Below are positions 12,925 through 21,342 of a DNA stretch of 64,000 nt, piece after piece. Where the stretch lies: assembly GCF_020215665.1 (NCBI RefSeq), contig NZ_CP084061.1, positions 124,001-188,000 on the forward strand. Reading direction: 5' to 3'. This DNA comes from Blautia parvula. GTDB lineage: Bacteria; Bacillota; Clostridia; Lachnospirales; Lachnospiraceae. The position numbers were made by a program, and so were the translations under genes. Position 1 is the first letter of the stretch. The number at the start of each line of letters is the position of its first letter. A model generated the notes under the pieces. It saw only the letters and a list, made by a program, of their open reading frames with translations, was not told the DNA's origin and made no database searches.

Positions 12925-13061
12925 TACGAAAAATTATGGATATTTATCGGATGAATTGCATGAAAATACATTCTTGTTCCGGAGATACAAATAATATTTT
13001 GAAATACAAAGTAATATAGATATAATTTACAGAAAAATATAATAAAAATAAACAAATTGCA

Positions 13062-13090
13062 TTGACTATAATCGGTCGAATCTCTATAAT
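13062..13090 (+). promoter_or_regulatory. Sigma-A promoter of the dehydratase-like redox operon
   Basis: TTGACT (13062-13067) and TATAAT (13085-13090) with a 17-bp spacer, 42 bp before the first start. The upstream stretch 12930-13060 is strongly AT-rich and could hold an UP element or operator, but I see no clean dyad. Confidence 0.8.
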
Positions 13091-13132
13091 AAAGGTAACA
13101 GTGCAGCGTGAACACAGGAGGTGGATAGGCGT

Positions 13133-13894
13133 ATGAGAGAAGCAAAAATCATTGCCGTTGCAGGTAAAGGAGGTGTGGGAAAGACATCGGTTTCCGCCAT
13201 GATCGTTCGTATCCTGACACGGAAATATCCGGATGCCAGGATCCTGGCCATCGACGCGGACCCGGCTGTAGGGCTTGCCACAGCACTTGGGGTTACTGTG
13301 GAGAGCACCATGGATGACATACGGAAGGCAATTGTTGAAAATGTTCAAAAAGGTCAGAAAAAGGAAGCGGTGGAGTGCCTGGGGGAGGCCAGAAATTTAA
13401 TGTTTGATGCTCTGAAAGAGCAGGAGGGATTTGCGTTTCTGGCGATCGGACGCCCGGAGGCTGCAGGATGTTACTGTGCGGTAAACGCATATCTGAAGGA
13501 AGTCATCACCATGATGGCAGAGCAGTTTGACTATGTGGTGATTGACGGTGAGGCCGGGATTGAACAGATCAACCGCCGTGTTATGGAGCGCGTGACCCAT
13601 TTGATTCTCATCACAGATCCCAGCCAGAAAGGGCTGCAGGTCATCAAAACCATAAAAAAAGTGGCGGATGAGCTGGTCATGTATGAAGCCTGCGGTGCGC
13701 TTGTGAACCGTCTGCCGGATACGGAAATGCTGAGGTTTCTGGATTTTGAGAAGATTCCTTTTCTCGGGTCCATCGGACAGGACAGCAGTCTGACAGAGTT
13801 TGATCTGAAGGGGGAGAACATTTTAGACCTGCCTGACAGTTCCCTGCTGGCAGCAGGCGTGGGAGAGGCACTGGAAAAACTGCATATTGTATAA
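13133..13894 (+). CDS. CooC-like P-loop ATPase (nickel-insertion accessory protein family)
   Basis: 253 residues from ATG 13133, 11 bp after AGGAGG; GTG 13121 overlaps that site. It is a MinD/ParA-class ATPase with deviant Walker A VAGKGGVGKTSVSAM (about residues 9-23), an AIDADPAVGLATALG switch segment, and a DYVVIDGEAGIEQINRR Walker B region. Cys113-Tyr-Cys115 in AGCYCAVN matches the CxC pair that binds nickel or zinc at the CooC dimer interface. CooC proteins load Ni into carbon monoxide dehydrogenase and related enzymes. It leads a tight operon without a CO dehydrogenase catalytic subunit, so the client is unclear; the acetyl-CoA-synthase-like protein four genes later is the best guess. 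Confidence 0.85.
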   Translation: MREAKIIAVAGKGGVGKTSVSAMIVRILTRKYPDARILAIDADPAVGLATALGVTVESTMDDIRKAIVENVQKGQKKEAVECLGEARNLMFDALKEQEGFAFLAIGRPEAAGCYCAVNAYLKEVITMMAEQFDYVVIDGEAGIEQINRRVMERVTHLILITDPSQKGLQVIKTIKKVADELVMYEACGALVNRLPDTEMLRFLDFEKIPFLGSIGQDSSLTEFDLKGENILDLPDSSLLAAGVGEALEKLHIV

Positions 13895-13909
13895 GGAGGT
13901 GTGAACCGG

Positions 13910-15115
13910 GTGAAAGATTTAAAGCACTTGTTTTACTTTGAAAACCTGCTTCAGGAGGCTAACAATGAACTGGTACAGCAGGCAAAAAAGGAGGGAAAAC
14001 TGGCGATTGGATATACCTGTTTCCATATGCCGGAGGTTCTGCTCAATGTGGACAACTGTTTTTCTCTCAGGATGAGGGCGCCCAGGACAGGTTCCCTGGA
14101 GATTGCCACATATTACATGTCAAACTATACCTGTGAGTATTGCCGCGCCCTTTTGGAGCGGGCAGTGGAGGGCGGCTACAATTTCCTGGACGGTATAGCA
14201 GCGGTTGATGCCTGTGCCCAGATGAACCGTTCCATGGAAAATATCCTGGTGCAGAAGCTGATACCGGGAGACAAATTTTTCATGTCCCATGTGGATGTGC
14301 CCTATAAGGTGACGGAACATGGGGTGGAGCACCAGGCAGAACAGATTCGGACAAAGGTCTTTAAAAAACTTGAGGAAAACTACGGGGTGGACACTTCGGA
14401 TGATGCCATCAGAAAGGCCGTGGAGGAGCACAATAAAATCTGCCGTATCATCACAGAGATCGGGGAATACCGCAAGGAAGAGAATCCCCGCATTACAGGC
14501 TACGAATTCCATATTCTGAACCTGGTCACCTATGTCTGTCCGAAATATCTGATCCTGGACAGGCTGCAGGAGACGCTGGAGGAGATTAGAAACAGAGAAC
14601 CGGATGAAAAAAAGAATTACCGGGCCAGGGTGGTCATTGCGGGCAGTGAGATCGATGACCCTGATTTTACGAAGCTGGTGGAGGAGGCCGGTGCCCTTGT
14701 GGTAGCAGACCGTTTCTGCTTTGGCTCCTTTCCGGGAAGACAGGAGATACACATTGGAGAAGAGGAGGACGCACTGAAGGCAGTATGCCGCAGATATATG
14801 GAGGACAGCCAGTGTGCCCGTTATATGAGCCACGAGAAGATCCAGGCAAGACGTGATTTTGTGAGAAAACTCTATGAGGATTACCATGCGGACGGCATTA
14901 TATATGAGCAGTTAAAATTCTGTGACTACTGGGGATATGAAAGAGCCTTAGTCAGTCATATCATGCAGGAGGAATACGAACTTCCGGTACTGTCCGTGGA
15001 CAGACCTTACAGGGTCGGCTCCTCCGGGCAGATGCGTACCAGGATCCAGGCTTTTGTGGAACGGATGGAAATTAAGAAGATCCAGAACCAGAGAGGAGGC
15101 GCCCTCCATGGATAA
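13910..15115 (+). CDS. 2-hydroxyacyl-CoA dehydratase-like subunit, HgdB/FldC family
   Basis: 401 residues from GTG 13910, 9 bp after AAGGAGGT (GTG 13901 is too close). The family holds a [4Fe-4S] cluster and receives an electron from an ATP-driven activator to eliminate or reduce at an acyl-CoA. Likely cluster Cys are C37 (GYTCFHMPEVLL), C75/C78 (NYTCEYC) and C338 (QLKFCDYWGYE), in the usual order for HgdB-like subunits. The C-terminus LPVLSVDRPYRVGSSGQM also matches; a Gly-rich loop is present. It is shorter and more divergent than characterised lactoyl- or phenyllactyl-CoA dehydratases. The next gene overlaps by 8 bp, consistent with a heteromeric complex. The substrate cannot be told from sequence. 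Confidence 0.85.
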   Translation: MKDLKHLFYFENLLQEANNELVQQAKKEGKLAIGYTCFHMPEVLLNVDNCFSLRMRAPRTGSLEIATYYMSNYTCEYCRALLERAVEGGYNFLDGIAAVDACAQMNRSMENILVQKLIPGDKFFMSHVDVPYKVTEHGVEHQAEQIRTKVFKKLEENYGVDTSDDAIRKAVEEHNKICRIITEIGEYRKEENPRITGYEFHILNLVTYVCPKYLILDRLQETLEEIRNREPDEKKNYRARVVIAGSEIDDPDFTKLVEEAGALVVADRFCFGSFPGRQEIHIGEEEDALKAVCRRYMEDSQCARYMSHEKIQARRDFVRKLYEDYHADGIIYEQLKFCDYWGYERALVSHIMQEEYELPVLSVDRPYRVGSSGQMRTRIQAFVERMEIKKIQNQRGGALHG

Positions 15116-16754
15116 AAAAATAGAAGAACTGCTGGAAAAGGGAAAAGAACTGAAAACACAGGGCAGTGAGATTCTGAAAAAGGAGAAAAAAACAGTCTCC
15201 AGAGCCTTTCATGCCTGGAAAGACATGGACCATCACAAGGGAGATGTCCACACCGGTGAGCTGACAACCGCCTTCAGAGAGTGGAGAGGTGTAAAGGACA
15301 CAGCCTACGACTTTGCAAAATGGCTGCAGGTGTGGGGAGATATGAGCCTTATGATCATGAAAAATCCTGTGGGTTCCGTAAAGGGACTGTGGAAATACAG
15401 ATGGTTCAGTTCCTATCTGCAGACCCCCATGTTCATTGACGCCCAGCTCACAGGACTGCGCGGGCCGCAGCTCCGTATTGCCAGGGAGCATATGAGGATG
15501 ATCGTGCGGTTCTGTACCCGCCTTCTGGAAAACACCTTCAAGGCAGATGAGAACCTGAACGGACCCAATGCCTTAAGCGATAAAATCGTACTTTTTGACG
15601 AGATGATGCCCATACATATCATGGCAGGTTTTCCGAACCTCATAGGCATGCCGTCCCAGATGGCCCCTGTGTACATCACTTCCCTTCTGGATCAGCAGAT
15701 GCAGGTACATTATCTGGATGAGACGGAAAACTACGGGCTTCCGGCAGACGTATGTCCCCTTCCCTCCGCGGAGGCAGGATGCGGCATCGCCGGGGATTAT
15801 CCCATATTCGGAAAATGCTATATAACCAGCAGCATGCCCTGCGACGGAAGCGTTATGACAAATATATTCCAGGACAGATATTTTAAGCTCCCCACCTATC
15901 CGCTGACTCTTCCGGTGCGCTATCTGGATGAGCAGGCCGTGGACTATGCGGTGGAGGAGATCAAGGGTATGATCCGCTTTATCGAGGAGAATACAGGGGA
16001 GACATTTGACTGGGACGCTTATTTTGAAGCCATGGAAAGATACAATAAGGAGACAGAGTATGAGCAGGAGAAATGGGATGTAAACCAGACCGCGTATCCG
16101 CAGATCACAGGCTCCATCCTGGCTATCTACCGGGAGCTGAGCTATATGGCAGACGCAGGCCGGGATCCCAGATTTTTGAAGACAGATGAGAGAGTGAACA
16201 AGATCATGATGAAGGCCTACAGGGAGAAGAACCCCTGTGCAAAAGAGATGCGGCACCGGGCTGTGGTATGGTCCTGTCCGGCCCACTATTACGCCAACTT
16301 CGGAAATTGGGCAGAACAGTGCTGGGGGATTGATGTGCTCATTGATATGGAGAGCATGATGTCCATGAAATTCATCAATACGGAGGACAAAGAGGAATCT
16401 TTAAAGGATATTGCATGGACCTATGAGCGAATGGCCATGAGAAAACACACCAACGGCGGCTATGCCAATGTGCTGGATGAACTCTGGAAGGTCTGTGAGG
16501 AATTCCATGCGGATATGGTTATCATGTACAGCCACATTTCCTGCAAGACCATGGCAGGGCTTCAGGGACTGTTTGACGATCAGGCAAGGGAGCGGGGAAT
16601 CCGTTTTATCTGGGTGGAACACGATCTGATGGACCCCAGAACGGTCTCCAGGCGCCATATGAGAGAGTCCGTGAACCGCTACATGCGCACAGTCATGCAT
16701 GAGGAACCCGTGGACCCGTCTTTGGAAGATTTTGACGATGAGAAAGAATGGTAG
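15108..16754 (+). CDS. 2-hydroxyacyl-CoA dehydratase-like large subunit, HgdA-related
   Basis: 548 residues from ATG 15108 behind GAGAGGAGG. This is about 100-150 residues longer than typical HgdA/FldB subunits because of an N-terminal extension: a charged helix (residues 1-40, MDKKIEELLEKGKELKTQG) and a further domain to about 130. Conserved core pieces are visible, including Cys216 in ADVCPLPSAEAGCG, FGKCYITSSMPCDG, VVWSCPAHYY and Cys479 in MYSHISCKTMAG near the end. It has many Cys, enough for one or two clusters. It is translationally coupled to the preceding subunit and precedes the activator, so the three should work together. The extension has no function I recognise. Confidence 0.8.
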   Translation: MDKKIEELLEKGKELKTQGSEILKKEKKTVSRAFHAWKDMDHHKGDVHTGELTTAFREWRGVKDTAYDFAKWLQVWGDMSLMIMKNPVGSVKGLWKYRWFSSYLQTPMFIDAQLTGLRGPQLRIAREHMRMIVRFCTRLLENTFKADENLNGPNALSDKIVLFDEMMPIHIMAGFPNLIGMPSQMAPVYITSLLDQQMQVHYLDETENYGLPADVCPLPSAEAGCGIAGDYPIFGKCYITSSMPCDGSVMTNIFQDRYFKLPTYPLTLPVRYLDEQAVDYAVEEIKGMIRFIEENTGETFDWDAYFEAMERYNKETEYEQEKWDVNQTAYPQITGSILAIYRELSYMADAGRDPRFLKTDERVNKIMMKAYREKNPCAKEMRHRAVVWSCPAHYYANFGNWAEQCWGIDVLIDMESMMSMKFINTEDKEESLKDIAWTYERMAMRKHTNGGYANVLDELWKVCEEFHADMVIMYSHISCKTMAGLQGLFDDQARERGIRFIWVEHDLMDPRTVSRRHMRESVNRYMRTVMHEEPVDPSLEDFDDEKEW

Positions 16755-16781
16755 ATATCCGGGAAAAGGAGGTTGCAGGCA

Positions 16782-17576
16782 ATGAAAAAATATTATGGGG
16801 GTTGTGACGTGGGCTCCACCTATACCAAATGCGTGATACTGGATGAGGAGGGAAATATAGCTGCCCACACAACAATAAAAAGTAAGATCAATCCATCGGA
16901 AAGCTCCGTGATCGCCATGGATGAAACCGTAAAACAGGTGGAGGAGTTAAAAAGCCCGGAGGACCTGGCTTATCTCATCGGCACCGGCTACGGAAGAAAC
17001 AAGGTACCCTTTGCGGACGAAAATATCTCGGAGATAAGCTGCCATGCCATGGGTGTCCATGTGACGAATCCGGAAGTGCGCGCCATCATTGATATCGGCG
17101 GACAGGATGTGAAGGGAATTGCCATAGACACAGACGGCACCGTCAAGAACTTTGCCATGAATGACAAGTGTGCCGCCGGAACGGGACGCTTTTTCGAGAC
17201 CATGGCAAATGCCTTTGAAATGTCCCTGGAGGATTTTTCAAATCTGTCTCTGAGCGCGAAAAATGTCATTCCCATCACTGCCCAGTGCACCGTATTTGCG
17301 GAGAGTGAAGTGATCACACTGGTAGGCGAGGGAAAGGCAAGGGACGAGATCGCAGCCGGCATTGAGCTGGCAGTGGCAAAACGCTGTTTTGTCATGGCAA
17401 AGAAAGCCGGTGTCACGGACAGGATCACCCTGACCGGAGGCTGCGCCAAGAATGCAGGACTGAAAAAGGCCATTGAGCATGTTCTGAAGGTAAAAGTGAT
17501 CGATCTGGATGTGGACCCGCAGCTTATGGGCGCCCTGGGCGCAGCGGAATATGCCCGCCAGAAGGGCAGAAGATAA
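16782..17576 (+). CDS. Dehydratase activator ATPase, HgdC/BcrAD/BadFG family
   Basis: 264 residues from ATG 16782 behind AAAAGGAGGTT. This homodimeric ASKHA-fold ATPase carries one [4Fe-4S] cluster between its subunits and uses ATP to push an electron to a very low potential for its dehydratase or reductase partner. Signatures: GGCDVGSTYTKCVI (phosphate loop), DIGGQDVKGIAID, MNDKCAAGTGRFFE with Cys130, and AQCTVFAESEVI with Cys169. The 39-residue spacing between the two Cys is the same as in the Acidaminococcus activator (127/166). TGGCAKNAGL follows. Every functional residue I can check is present, so the activator should be active. Confidence 0.93.
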   Translation: MKKYYGGCDVGSTYTKCVILDEEGNIAAHTTIKSKINPSESSVIAMDETVKQVEELKSPEDLAYLIGTGYGRNKVPFADENISEISCHAMGVHVTNPEVRAIIDIGGQDVKGIAIDTDGTVKNFAMNDKCAAGTGRFFETMANAFEMSLEDFSNLSLSAKNVIPITAQCTVFAESEVITLVGEGKARDEIAAGIELAVAKRCFVMAKKAGVTDRITLTGGCAKNAGLKKAIEHVLKVKVIDLDVDPQLMGALGAAEYARQKGRR

Positions 17577-17589
17577 AGGAGGAATCCCT

Positions 17590-17790
17590 ATGAAGAAAGA
17601 ATGCTGTGTAAAGACATGCTGTATCAAAAAGCACGGATGCATCCTGAAAAAGATACTGGCAGTAAGCGGAATCGCAGCCGTCCTGCTTTTCATCATATAT
17701 ATCTTTAACCTGGATGTGAAGCTGATCGGCTTTGTCTATAAGCTGCTTGGCAAACATTACGACGATATGGACAGGGAGAGAAAACTGTAA
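17590..17790 (+). CDS. Small Cys-rich single-span membrane protein
   Basis: 66 residues from ATG 17590, 7 bp after AAAGGAGG. The N-terminal 20 residues carry five Cys in the pattern CC-x3-CC-x4-C (ECCVKTCCIKKHGC) among Lys residues. One strong membrane helix follows (ILAVSGIAAVLLFIIYIF, about residues 25-42), then a short charged tail (HYDDMDRERKL). No family is recognised. Positive charges precede the helix, so the Cys cluster should face the cytoplasm. Its stop shares one base with the next start, so it is part of the operon; a metal- or electron-relay anchor for the complex is an inference. Confidence 0.75.
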   Translation: MKKECCVKTCCIKKHGCILKKILAVSGIAAVLLFIIYIFNLDVKLIGFVYKLLGKHYDDMDRERKL

Positions 17791-18503
17791 TGGATATACA
17801 GGATCAGATCATCCGGGATACCCGTTCTCTGCTGCAGCAGATCCCTGCCGCCTGTTTTCCCTATAATGCACAGGACTGCGCACCCGCCCGGAAGGACAGC
17901 CAGGTGCTGCTTCTAAAAGAGACGGCCTTTGAGCTTGGCGGCAGAGAGAAAAAGAGCGCAGCGTATACCTGTGTTTCCTCCACGCCGGGCATAGTGGGGG
18001 AAAGCAAAACCCTGCTGTACGGGCCGGATCTTGGGCAGATCAGGGGGCCTCTTTCCTATGCCAGAATCACATTTGCGGAGACGGAGGAGATTGGGGAGGA
18101 CGACAGGGCGTATCACATCTGTAAGGACATTGACCTGATCAAATACAGTGTCTACCCCGAAGGATTTATGGTAAGAGCCTCCTCTATGGAGGAGCGGGAA
18201 CAGGTCAGAGTAGGAAAAAAAGCCGTTAAGGAAGGGCTGTCCTTTGCCCGGGTAGGCAGTCTGTATATAAATAAATATCTGGAATACCCCGGTGTAAAAG
18301 CTGTGCAGGTACTGTTCATAACCGAGGAGTCAGCAGATATTTTGTCGCTTAAGCGGCTGGCAGAGAAGAATAAAATGATAACAAAAGCACTGAATAAAAT
18401 CATGGAAAAAGCAGACAAAGAGTGCAGCACCTGCGGATTAAAGGAAATCTGCGATGAGGTGGAAGGGCTTCGGAAACTGCATTTCCAGAACAGAAAGAGG
18501 TGA
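17790..18503 (+). CDS. Stand-alone protein resembling the central domain of acetyl-CoA synthase (AcsB/CdhC)
   Basis: 237 residues from ATG 17790. The pattern of an early FELGG, a GPDL...GPL segment and the later stretch ending RVGKKAVKEGLSFARVGSLY then AVQVLFITEES follows the middle domain of CO dehydrogenase/acetyl-CoA synthase beta subunits (their RISK-A-KGF-HIGK and KVQVTIYTD elements). The C-terminal domain that holds the Ni A-cluster is absent. Instead a C212-x2-C215-x5-C221 motif (ECSTCGLKEIC) lies near the end, and two further Cys lie near the start (AACF, QDCAP). It sits between a Cys-rich membrane protein and a flavin reductase, in an operon led by a CooC-like ATPase. Homology is judged by eye; role unknown. 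Confidence 0.6.
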   Translation: MDIQDQIIRDTRSLLQQIPAACFPYNAQDCAPARKDSQVLLLKETAFELGGREKKSAAYTCVSSTPGIVGESKTLLYGPDLGQIRGPLSYARITFAETEEIGEDDRAYHICKDIDLIKYSVYPEGFMVRASSMEEREQVRVGKKAVKEGLSFARVGSLYINKYLEYPGVKAVQVLFITEESADILSLKRLAEKNKMITKALNKIMEKADKECSTCGLKEICDEVEGLRKLHFQNRKR

Positions 18504-18508
18504 CATGT

Positions 18509-20782
18509 TTGAAAACTGATAAAATCGTTCAGAAGCTGGTAGACAGCTACGGAAGCTGGGTACAGGAGGAGAAGGAAAACTGTCCCGGACACTCTGCTGT
18601 CATGAGCAGTAAGCTTTACCCCTACGACGCGATCTTTTCACCTATACGGGTCAACCGCATGACATTGAAAAACAGGGTGGTCATGGCCCCCATGGGCAAT
18701 CTGAACATGTGTGAGGAGAACGGACGGCCAAATGACAAGATGCTCCAGTATTTTTTTGCCAGGGCAAAAGGAGGGACCGGCCTTCTTACAACCGGCCTGA
18801 TCCCCATCAGCCACGGGATTGACAATACCGTTACCGAGCCCGGGAAGCTGAGCTTTTTCCCCAGGATCGACAGAAGCCGGACGGTTTTCTCCGGGTGGAG
18901 AGATCTGGCTCAGGGAGTACATGCATACGGGAGCCGCATTTTTATCCAGCTCACCCCGGGGCTCGGAAGGGTAGGACCGCCCCAGTGTGTCATCAATGAG
19001 ATGAAGCTGCCCTGTTCCGCCTCTCTGAACCCTAATTTCTACATTCCGGAGCTTCCCTGTCTGCCGCTGACAGACCTGGCTCTCCATAAAATCATTAAAA
19101 ACGGCGGCCAGGCCGCCTCCGACGCCAAGACAGCGGGACTTGACGGCGTTTACCTCCACGGCCATGAGGGTTATCTGCTGGATCAGCTCACAAACCCTGC
19201 GTTCAACAGGAGAAAAGCAGGGAGATATGCTTACTGGCAGAACTTCGGCCTGGACCTGGTAAGGGAAATCAGAAAACGAGTGGGAGACGCTTATCCTATC
19301 ATGTACAGGATCGATCTGTCCCTGGCTCTCAATGAGACGTACAAGGAGCGGATGGAGAGCGTAAAATCCCTGAAGAAATTCGGAAACGGAAGAACCATCT
19401 ACGATACCCTGCGCTACATGGAAAATCTGATAAAAGCCGGCGTGGATATGTTTGACGTGGATCTGGGCTGCTATGACAACTGGTGGCTGCCCCATCCCCC
19501 GGCAGGTATGCCGGCAGGCTGTTTTTTGGAAATTTCCAGGATCGCAAAGAAATATTTCAAGACCAGGGAAGTGAAATCCAATGCCGGTCTGGAGGTACCG
19601 ATCGTGGCAGTGGGGAAACTGGGATACCCGGATTTGGCGGAAAAGGCTTTAAGAGACGGCATGTGCGACCTTGTCATGCTGGGGCGTCCCCTTCTTGCTG
19701 ACCCGGACTGGTGCAAAAAGGCATATGCCGGGGAGGTGGACCGGATCCGTCCCTGCATCGGATGCCAGGAGGGCTGCATCAACGAGTTTGTGGAGGGCGG
19801 CCATCCCCAGTGCGCAGTAAACCCGAGAACCGGCTTTGAGGACGTGATACCGGAGACTCTGCCAAAAGCGGAGAACAAAAAGAAGATCGCAGTTGTGGGA
19901 GCCGGCCCATCAGGCATGCAGTTTGCCCTGACCGCATCTGCCCGCGGCCATGAGGTAACCCTGATCGAGCGGGAAAAGGTGCTTGGCGGCAAGGTGGTTC
20001 CCGGCAGCAGACCGAAGATAAAATTTGATTTTAAAAACTATCTGGATTACCTCATAAGGGAAGTACGGCTGGCAGAGGAAAAAGGCGGCATTATCCTGCA
20101 GACCGGTGTGGAGGCAGACACACAGTGGCTGAAAGAACAGAACTTTGACGCCATTGTCTACAACATCGGAACCACCAGCGTAGTCCCCAGAATCCCCGGC
20201 GTGGACCAGGCAGACTGGGTGCAGGCCACAGACCTTCTCTGCGAACCCGAGAAACTGGGAGATGCCAGAAGAACCGTGGTCATCGGCGGCGGCGTTGTGG
20301 GATGTGAGACGGCATACTGGCTTAAATACGAAAAGGGCTGCGACGTGACCGTTGTGGAGATGCTCCCCTACATTATGAGCGGCGCCTGCACAGCGAACCG
20401 TTACCATCTGATCCATTACATGGAGAAGGCGGGAGTGAAGCTGTTAAACTGTGCAAAAGTCACGGGATTTACTAAGAACAGTGTACAGATAGAAAAGAAC
20501 ATCTCAAAAGGGGTTCCGGACCCCTACAATACCTGGCAGCCACAGCTTCCTGAAAACATTGCCAATCCCCTGGCTAAAAAAATCGGCCCGGAGACAGAGG
20601 TACAGGAGCTTCCCGCCGATCTGGTGGTATTTGCCATGGGAGGCAGACCGGATGAGAGTCTGTATCTGGAAGGGCTTCGGATGCATGCAGCCAAAGAGCT
20701 TTACAACATCGGAGACAGTTTCGCAGGCGGAAGAGTGTTGGAGGCGGCACGGGCGGCTTATCGTTTGGCACGGGATATTTAG
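18509..20782 (+). CDS. Old Yellow Enzyme/2,4-dienoyl-CoA reductase-type FMN, Fe-S, FAD oxidoreductase
   Basis: 757 residues from TTG 18509, 6 bp after AGAGGTG; GTG 18500 adds three residues. Residues 40-400 form the FMN TIM barrel (NRVVMAPMGNLNM; FIQLTPGLGRVGPP; GVYLHGHEGYLLDQL; CDLVMLGRPLLADPDW). Cys416, 419, 423 and 435 (RPCIGCQEGC...HPQC) bind a [4Fe-4S] cluster. Residues 455-757 hold FAD and NAD(P) Rossmann folds (VVGAGPSGMQFAL; VVIGGGVVGCETAYW). This is the layout of enoate and dienoyl-CoA reductases, including BaiCD-like enzymes. A 35-40 residue N-terminal extension (VQKLVDSYGSWVQEEKENC) is unusual. It is the last gene of the operon and could supply electrons to, or reduce the enoyl product of, the dehydratase-like complex. 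Confidence 0.85.
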   Translation: MKTDKIVQKLVDSYGSWVQEEKENCPGHSAVMSSKLYPYDAIFSPIRVNRMTLKNRVVMAPMGNLNMCEENGRPNDKMLQYFFARAKGGTGLLTTGLIPISHGIDNTVTEPGKLSFFPRIDRSRTVFSGWRDLAQGVHAYGSRIFIQLTPGLGRVGPPQCVINEMKLPCSASLNPNFYIPELPCLPLTDLALHKIIKNGGQAASDAKTAGLDGVYLHGHEGYLLDQLTNPAFNRRKAGRYAYWQNFGLDLVREIRKRVGDAYPIMYRIDLSLALNETYKERMESVKSLKKFGNGRTIYDTLRYMENLIKAGVDMFDVDLGCYDNWWLPHPPAGMPAGCFLEISRIAKKYFKTREVKSNAGLEVPIVAVGKLGYPDLAEKALRDGMCDLVMLGRPLLADPDWCKKAYAGEVDRIRPCIGCQEGCINEFVEGGHPQCAVNPRTGFEDVIPETLPKAENKKKIAVVGAGPSGMQFALTASARGHEVTLIEREKVLGGKVVPGSRPKIKFDFKNYLDYLIREVRLAEEKGGIILQTGVEADTQWLKEQNFDAIVYNIGTTSVVPRIPGVDQADWVQATDLLCEPEKLGDARRTVVIGGGVVGCETAYWLKYEKGCDVTVVEMLPYIMSGACTANRYHLIHYMEKAGVKLLNCAKVTGFTKNSVQIEKNISKGVPDPYNTWQPQLPENIANPLAKKIGPETEVQELPADLVVFAMGGRPDESLYLEGLRMHAAKELYNIGDSFAGGRVLEAARAAYRLARDI

Positions 20783-20961: not shown

Positions 20962-21342
20962 ATGGCGGAAGACAGAAATACGTATAAGATACATGATAAC
21001 GGTTCGCTTGGTGAAGTGCAGATTGCTGATGAAGTGGTTGCCATCATCGCCGGACTGGCTGCTACAGAAGTTGACGGTGTCGGCTCCATGGCAGGAAATA
21101 TCACCAATGAACTGGTAGGCAAGCTGGGCATGAAGAACCTTTCCAAGGGCGTCAAAGTGGACGTGCTTGAGGACGTTGTATGTGTGGATTTGGCCCTGAA
21201 TATTGAATATGGTTTCAATATCCTGGAAACCAGCAAAAAGGTGCAGGAAAGAGTAAAATCTGCGATTGAAAATATGACAGGTCTGAATGTTTCCGATGTG
21301 AATGTGCGGATTGCCAGTGTGGAGATGGAAAAGACCAAATAA
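20962..21342 (+). CDS. Asp23/Gls24 family protein (YqhY-like)
   Basis: 126 residues from ATG 20962 behind TATAGGAGG. Small alpha/beta proteins of this family (DUF322) are linked to envelope stress in Gram-positives, and YqhY is tied to acetyl-CoA carboxylase control in Bacillus. The characteristic sequence is visible: EVQIADEVVAIIAGLAATEVDGV, LGMKNLSKGVKVDV and VNVRIASVEME at the C-terminus. It stands first in the conserved nusB-xseA-dxs block, as in many Firmicutes, but is cut off from nusB by a terminator hairpin. Confidence 0.92.
   Translation: MAEDRNTYKIHDNGSLGEVQIADEVVAIIAGLAATEVDGVGSMAGNITNELVGKLGMKNLSKGVKVDVLEDVVCVDLALNIEYGFNILETSKKVQERVKSAIENMTGLNVSDVNVRIASVEMEKTK

Follow-up and report, generated by a model that had tools for sequence, protein, structure and literature searches.

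What does an operon do that joins a CooC-type ATPase and a fragment of acetyl-CoA synthase (ACS) to the subunits of an ATP-driven reductase? This question is raised by Blautia parvula (NCBI RefSeq assembly GCF_020215665.1, contig NZ_CP084061.1, positions 124,001 to 188,000 of the forward strand; this stretch of 64,000 nucleotides is referred to as the window, and gene coordinates are positions in it). On the plus strand, seven open reading frames (ORFs) lie between a YgjP-like gene (end 12849) and a gene starting at 20962 that we take to be Gls24-like; adjacent genes overlap by at most 8 nt or are separated by at most 27 nt, which bears out the seven-gene run described in an earlier note made from the DNA alone. 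In order, they encode a CooC-type ATPase, HgdB-like and HgdA-like subunits, an activator, a small single-transmembrane (TM) peptide, an ACS-like protein and an old-yellow-enzyme (OYE) reductase. With moderate confidence, we read the operon as encoding an ATP-driven reductase of the class I benzoyl-CoA reductase/double-cubane cluster protein (DCCP) kind that requires nickel and uses a maturation of the carbon monoxide dehydrogenase (CODH)/ACS type. The double-cubane part of this reading appears highly probable, and the nickel need likely. The support is sequence-based and consists of gene co-conservation, cysteine sets, an ACS A2 fold and a linkage to nickel proteins; from it we infer all of the chemistry, all clusters, the seat of nickel and the substrate, probably a small molecule that is unsaturated or aromatic. 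The reading upholds the original proposal of an ATP-driven, perhaps metal-assisted reductase, the assistance now being assigned to nickel.

Conservation of the gene unit

The ACS-like protein was searched in a phylum sample (299 genomes) and a family sample (397 genomes), both including B. parvula itself, and was present in 3 and 30 genomes, respectively; stretches of up to 20 kb were fetched around the matches. An HgdB-like alignment was run against 84,980 GTDB genomes, yielding at least 582 related stretches, of which the best 80 were fetched. The resulting collection of 110 loci, 30 chosen by the ACS-like protein (L036–L065) and 80 by the best HgdB matches (L084–L163), is not independent and holds close relatives (L135 and L145, 95%, and L091 and L092, 90% in DNA); its counts leave out L066 (genome G019, without a tblastn match) and L067 (the DCCP-type gene of B. 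parvula). For cysteine conservation, matches were used if they covered at least 60% of the query and had no internal stop, and the window was counted as a row; alignment A3 leaves out L065, which has a stop codon.

The exact order CooC–HgdB–HgdA–activator–peptide–ACS-like protein was detected in 53 of the 110 loci. CooC, HgdB, HgdA, activator and ACS-like protein were all present in 64, and 61 of these had the peptide too. Among the 46 incomplete loci, the unit lies within 1,200 bp of the locus end in 41, the others being L041, L084, L099, L131 and L148. GTDB loci of at least 18 kb (n = 29) contained HgdB, HgdA, activator and peptide in every case, and CooC and the ACS-like protein in 27. This co-occurrence, over the 110 loci and over the 29 long ones, indicates that the six genes form one unit. 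Co-conservation of all seven genes, on which the earlier note had made its proposal depend, therefore holds for six, whereas the seventh, the OYE gene, is variable. Within the genus, a sister species (G697) carries all seven genes at 86–98% identity with collinear flanks; in the 20 genomes searched, the HgdA-like subunit was full-length in two (B. parvula and G697), represented only by fragments of 21–26% in nine, and not found in nine.

Departures from this arrangement bear on a serious, though unlikely, rival, in which the ACS-like protein is the true catalyst and its nickel site is reductively activated by the double-cubane pair and the activator. A precedent is the activation complex of methyl-coenzyme M reductase (MCR), which is ATP-dependent and in which nitrogenase-type Fe-S clusters lead to the nickel site of F430, as described in the available part of PMC12176620. 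In L041, L043, L051 and L063, CooC, activator and ACS-like protein stand together, away from the HgdB/HgdA pair, which speaks for this rival; in the L041 genome, HgdB sits on a separate contig. However, six loci (L036, L037, L052, L127, L133 and L146) have a second HgdB/HgdA pair with a single ACS-like protein, an arrangement that looks rather like several catalysts sharing a maturation set, and the HgdA-like subunit retains a three-cysteine site.

The contig stretch stops no more than 300 bp from the activator match in 24 of the 80 GTDB loci (L124, L129, L139, L140, L142, L143, L149, L151, L156, L157, L161 and L163 are among them), as if near-identical activator copies had broken the assemblies. 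Directly upstream of the unit in L133 (27–2023) are genes for Sulf_transp (YedE-like), a protein that is presumably TusA-like, Se_S_carrier, a His-rich protein and CooT; a selenium or sulphur link is possible.

The subunit pair, its activator and the membrane peptide

Both HGD-D subunits, the activator (BcrAD_BadFG) and the Fe-S/FMN/FAD OYE are well placed by Pfam and NCBIfam. The HgdB-like subunit (13910..15115; its ORF opens at GTG 13901, the conserved start being 13910) matches HGD-D at 2e-89 and is predicted to be the N-type subunit with an [8Fe-9S] double cubane. Its six cysteines, invariant in 107/107 rows, align with C36, C73, C100, C263, C293 and C327 of BzdN and with C76, C114, C144, C309, C341 and C374 of DCCP. 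The BzdN cluster is held by six cysteine thiolates, near helices 74:85, 103:113 and 327-343 (PMC11971306, consulted in part), and by position the aligned cysteines would be double-cubane ligands.

The HgdA-like subunit (15108..16754), in which the HGD-D fold is recognized by sequence and by fold, is the predicted O-type partner with a [4Fe-4S] cluster. Of the BzdO ligands, Cys95 aligns with C216 and Cys380 with C479 (this one through a weak second segment), and C245 falls within one column of Cys128. A nearly invariant Ser follows C245 by three residues; the catalytic pair of BzdO is Glu65 and His131, Glu65 lying beyond the aligned part. The subunit carries a TTCDG motif, and a conserved N-terminal helical region that Pfam leaves unnamed (15108-15600) precedes its HGD-D fold. 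The cluster-type cysteines first noticed in two dehydratase-like subunits are thus conserved family features, and the HgdAB-type label attached to them is replaced, because the subunits bear the cysteine sets of BzdNO/DCCP.

Fold and activator would also suit an ordinary 2-hydroxyacyl-CoA dehydratase (HgdAB/HadBC), a reading that is already disfavoured and that we consider highly improbable. All six BzdN/DCCP cysteines are present here, whereas HadC has Pro (P35) and Ala (A261) at two of these positions; the NCBIfam HadC model reaches 91.8 of 700 bits; and neither a CoA-transferase nor a hydroxyacid dehydrogenase is found among the seven genes. With CODH likewise absent from the operon, the previous view that it belongs neither to amino acid fermentation nor to the Wood–Ljungdahl pathway is supported.

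The HgdC/BadF-type ATPase activator (16782..17576) scores 219.8 bits against TIGR00241 (cut-off 125.4); its best PDB match is MbdQ (E 3e-59), with HgdC 1hux at E 9.7e-57, and C130 and C169 are both kept in 81/81 rows, in agreement with the cluster residues first assigned to it. The peptide (17590..17790; 66 aa) had been described as a Cys-rich membrane peptide. It has a single TM segment and NLD(M/Q)K and K-x-YD-like motifs, but in the 22-row alignment the Cys-rich N-terminus is not a family trait, other cysteines occurring only in L037, in a doubtful upstream extension.

B. parvula has a separate DCCP/YjiM-type HGD-D gene (contig C1:856975-858006; L001, L067) with its own activator, adjoining a gene for what we assume to be a NifS-like aminotransferase.

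The ACS-like protein and the nickel linkage

As a single sequence, the ACS-like protein (17790..18503; 237 aa) scored 20.7 bits against Pfam CdhC, under the cut-off of 24, whereas the match is clear with the family profile and by fold. Domain A2 of ACS is present and domains A1 and A3 and the CGC motif are absent, so that its first description as a truncated ACS-like protein is borne out. Its C-terminal set, C212-x2-C215-x5-C221-x9-H231, compares with C-x2-C-x8-C-x9-C and CGC in the full A-cluster of ACS.

A one-carbon enzyme would agree with the A2 fold and with the CODH/ACS-type nickel proteins: CoA or CO would bind to the ACS-derived subunit, and a one-carbon unit would be reduced or coupled by the system. 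We give this very little credence: the six-gene unit contains no CODH, corrinoid protein or methyltransferase, 24 of the 30 carriers in the family sample are without CODH, and the two outer ACS domains are missing.

For the CooC-type ATPase (13133..13894), a single-sequence search returned only general ParA/MinD-type models in Pfam and NCBIfam; the family profile A4 (positions 8-236), run against the PDB, gave CooC (3kje) as the best match (E 1.8e-21) with the CYC motif aligned. A P-loop is present and the CxC pair (C113, C115) is conserved in 88/88 rows, which substantiates the initial assignment of a CooC-like ATPase with this pair. Nineteen of the 110 loci contain both CooT (PF10133; two copies were tested, at E 1.4e-13 and 1.6e-16) and a small His-rich protein. 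In Rhodospirillum rubrum, growth of cooC, cooT and cooJ mutants on CO depends on added nickel, and CooJ is a His-rich protein, according to the part of PMC6006190 available; the His-rich protein of the loci may be the CooJ equivalent, an assignment made by comparison with R. rubrum and not by a homology test.

Next, CooT was followed across the 397 genomes, of which 30 carried the ACS-like protein, 59 CooT and 87 CODH (E < 1e-80, five above the 82 passing the default cut-off; scoring took up to three candidates per genome, and some genomes are incomplete). In the 310 CODH-less genomes, CooT was present in 9 of 24 with the ACS-like protein and in 1 of 286 without it, the nine belonging to nine genera (Fisher p 2e-10, a value that is uncorrected for phylogeny and to that extent weakens the argument). 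In all nine, CooT is on the contig of the ACS-like protein, at 229–14,772 bp; in the one other genome (G515), it lies inside an ACS operon. Since CooT tracks the contig of the ACS-like protein where CODH is absent, the unit is an apparent client of CODH-type nickel proteins. At E 1e-5, no CODH or ACS match was obtained in 112 loci.

Several findings weigh against a nickel-requiring double-cubane reductase. Neither CooT nor the His-rich protein was found in the other 91 loci, and in the window neither occurs within 5-30 kb. CooT is missing from 15 of the 24 CODH-less carriers, and in CODH-positive genomes it is not associated with the ACS-like protein (2/6 vs 47/81, p 0.4). The Cys tail of the ACS-like protein falls outside the structural alignment, and the CGC motif is lacking. 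Scores against the NCBIfam equivalogs NF040772 (double_cubane; 139.8 of 350 needed) and TIGR03190 (BzdN; 100.8 of 453.8 needed) fall far short of the cut-offs. Finally, CODH, which was rightly reported as absent from the operon, is encoded elsewhere in the same genome, with three CODHs and two ACSs, and the only CooT lies in a CODH/ACS operon; here CooC could therefore be explained otherwise. CooC could also serve an Fe-S site instead of a nickel site.

The last point leads to an improbable alternative, in which the role of CooC and the ACS-like protein is confined to assembling or repairing the Fe-S clusters of a reductase that is nickel-free when finished. CooC and NifH are both MinD-family ATPases and NifH handles an Fe-S cluster (PMC6006190, in the part available), and clusters are predicted in every catalytic part. 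On the other hand, CooT, the His-rich protein and HypA stand beside the unit in some loci, and the DCCP-type gene of B. parvula (L067) has an activator and no CooC match in its 16-kb stretch.

Two further regions of the B. parvula genome hold related genes. A Wood–Ljungdahl operon (C1:562000-581000, L164) includes two CooC-type ATPases, and a second CODH/ACS pair is at 2231000-2250000 (L165). In this genome, the operon CooC shares 31.5% with the CODH-side ATPase and less, 28.3%, with the ACS-side one.

Flavoprotein partners and promoter

The reductase gene at the end of the operon (18509..20782; 757-760 aa; its ORF opens at GTG 18500, 18509 being the alternative start) encodes an OYE with Oxidored_FMN and Pyr_redox_2. 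The FMN barrel, the 4Fe-4S cysteine set (for Fe-S OYEs we assume CxxCx3Cx11C) and the FAD/NAD domain are present, and the best PDB match is 2,4-dienoyl-CoA reductase 1ps9 (E 5e-53). The Fe-S/FMN/FAD assignment made earlier thus stands; its place as an operon member is not fixed. An OYE of the window clade (61-73% identity) was found in 13 of the 110 loci, a BaiCD-like OYE in 12 (two weak) and an IsrA-like FAD/Fe-S protein in 9. HypA occurs in 8 loci, always together with the IsrA-like protein. No locus has two kinds. The other 76 loci, many of them truncated at a contig end, showed no partner of these three kinds. As the partner changes among ene-reductase-like families, the pattern hints at ene reduction as a step linked to the unit. 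According to the available part of PMC10134865, Acetobacterium wieringae encodes IsrA, its putative isoprene reductase, together with HypA/HypB, and its genome lacks a [NiFe]-hydrogenase. B. parvula also has an IsrA homologue (C1:2521355-2524003, L167), 47-48% identical to the IsrA-like partners and adjoining a CobW/HypB-family gene.

Upstream of the operon, a consensus scan of the plus strand detected two sigma-A-like promoter boxes with 11/12 matches each, TTGACT-17-TATAAT at 13062-13090 and a box of equal quality at 12999-13026. Across the 11-kb region, 23 such boxes were found vs 11.9 +/- 3.3 in shuffles. Given the equal second box and the 23 in the region, the one strong sigma-A promoter proposed before is retained as a consensus match only.

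Proposed mechanism and significance

In the reductase reading that we favour, the activator dimer would use ATP to supply the HgdB-like subunit and its [8Fe-9S] double cubane with electrons of very low potential, and these would pass on to an open [4Fe-4S] site of the HgdA-like subunit. Nickel would be loaded by CooC, with the assistance of CooT and the CooJ-like His-rich protein in a minority of species. Most likely the metal would sit in the ACS-derived protein, at its A-cluster-like Cys tail, and this protein may act as an extra Ni-Fe-S subunit or as a carrier. The TM peptide would anchor the complex to the membrane, and the exchangeable flavin ene-reductase (OYE, BaiCD-like OYE, or IsrA-like protein with HypA) could feed electrons or reduce a diene or ene product. 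A bolder version, which we put forward tentatively and hold to be rather doubtful, is a new class of nickel enzyme: half an A-cluster (Ni on a [4Fe-4S] held by C-x2-C-x5-C-x9-H) would reside in an ACS-derived subunit, which chaperones of the CooC/CooT/CooJ type would charge and which would form a complex with the ATP-driven double-cubane reductase. If true, it would link CODH/ACS to nitrogenase-like systems, for the most part in bacteria without CODH.

A 2018 review (PMC6006190, available in part) counted nine nickel enzymes and 111 CooT homologues, with CODH also in 85 CooT-containing proteomes. The family sample contains 10 genomes with CooT and without CODH, and in 9 of them CooT shares a contig with the unit, which offers such CooT orphans a concrete client. 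DCCP is described, in the part of PMC11971306 available, as the archetype of its protein family, without known biological function. The unit would be a widespread relative of it with a rich context, even if some of the at least 582 HgdB-type relatives perhaps lie outside the unit. Many carriers among the listed matches are gut metagenome assemblies, so the unit may belong to a nickel-dependent metabolism of animal gut bacteria. The gene set, unstudied and carried by many gut bacteria, would encode an ATP-driven enzyme related to benzene-ring reductases and equipped with nickel parts like those of CO enzymes, possibly a nickel enzyme of a new kind. In the literature searched, whose coverage is partial, no substrate is assigned to the unit and the unit is not described; its newness is accordingly not certain.

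Comparison with known systems

The unit shares with class I benzoyl-CoA reductases (BzdNO(PQ)/MbdONPQ) a six-Cys N-type subunit, a three-Cys O-type subunit and an HgdC-type activator. Unlike them, it has a single activator gene and adds CooC, the ACS-like protein and the TM peptide; the HgdA-like subunit has an extra N-terminal region, and scores lie far under the BzdN model. With DCCP/DCCP-R it has in common the six cysteines, a single activator and TTCDG, here in the HgdA-like subunit, but it comprises two different subunits, one reduced to three cysteines, and nickel genes. The likeness to HgdAB/HadBC extends to fold and activator, HadC lacking two of the six cysteines; to our knowledge, no CooC or ACS-like genes stand beside HgdAB/HadBC.

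As in the IsrA system, nickel chaperones occur without a hydrogenase, and in some species IsrA-like and HypA genes follow the unit. The isr operon itself, as given in the available part of PMC10134865, differs in consisting of five genes (an oxidoreductase, two HypA, HypB and a ferredoxin). The MCR activation complex, likened by description, shares ATP-driven low-potential electrons, complex Fe-S clusters and nickel, whereas its McrC, Mmp7, ABC-type A2 component and archaeal F430 target set it apart (PMC12176620, available in part). While the unit is without CODH, the A1 and A3 domains and the CGC motif, what it has in common with CODH/ACS (CooC, CooT, CooJ and ACS A2) is the nickel proteins and a single ACS domain with a CxxC after it.

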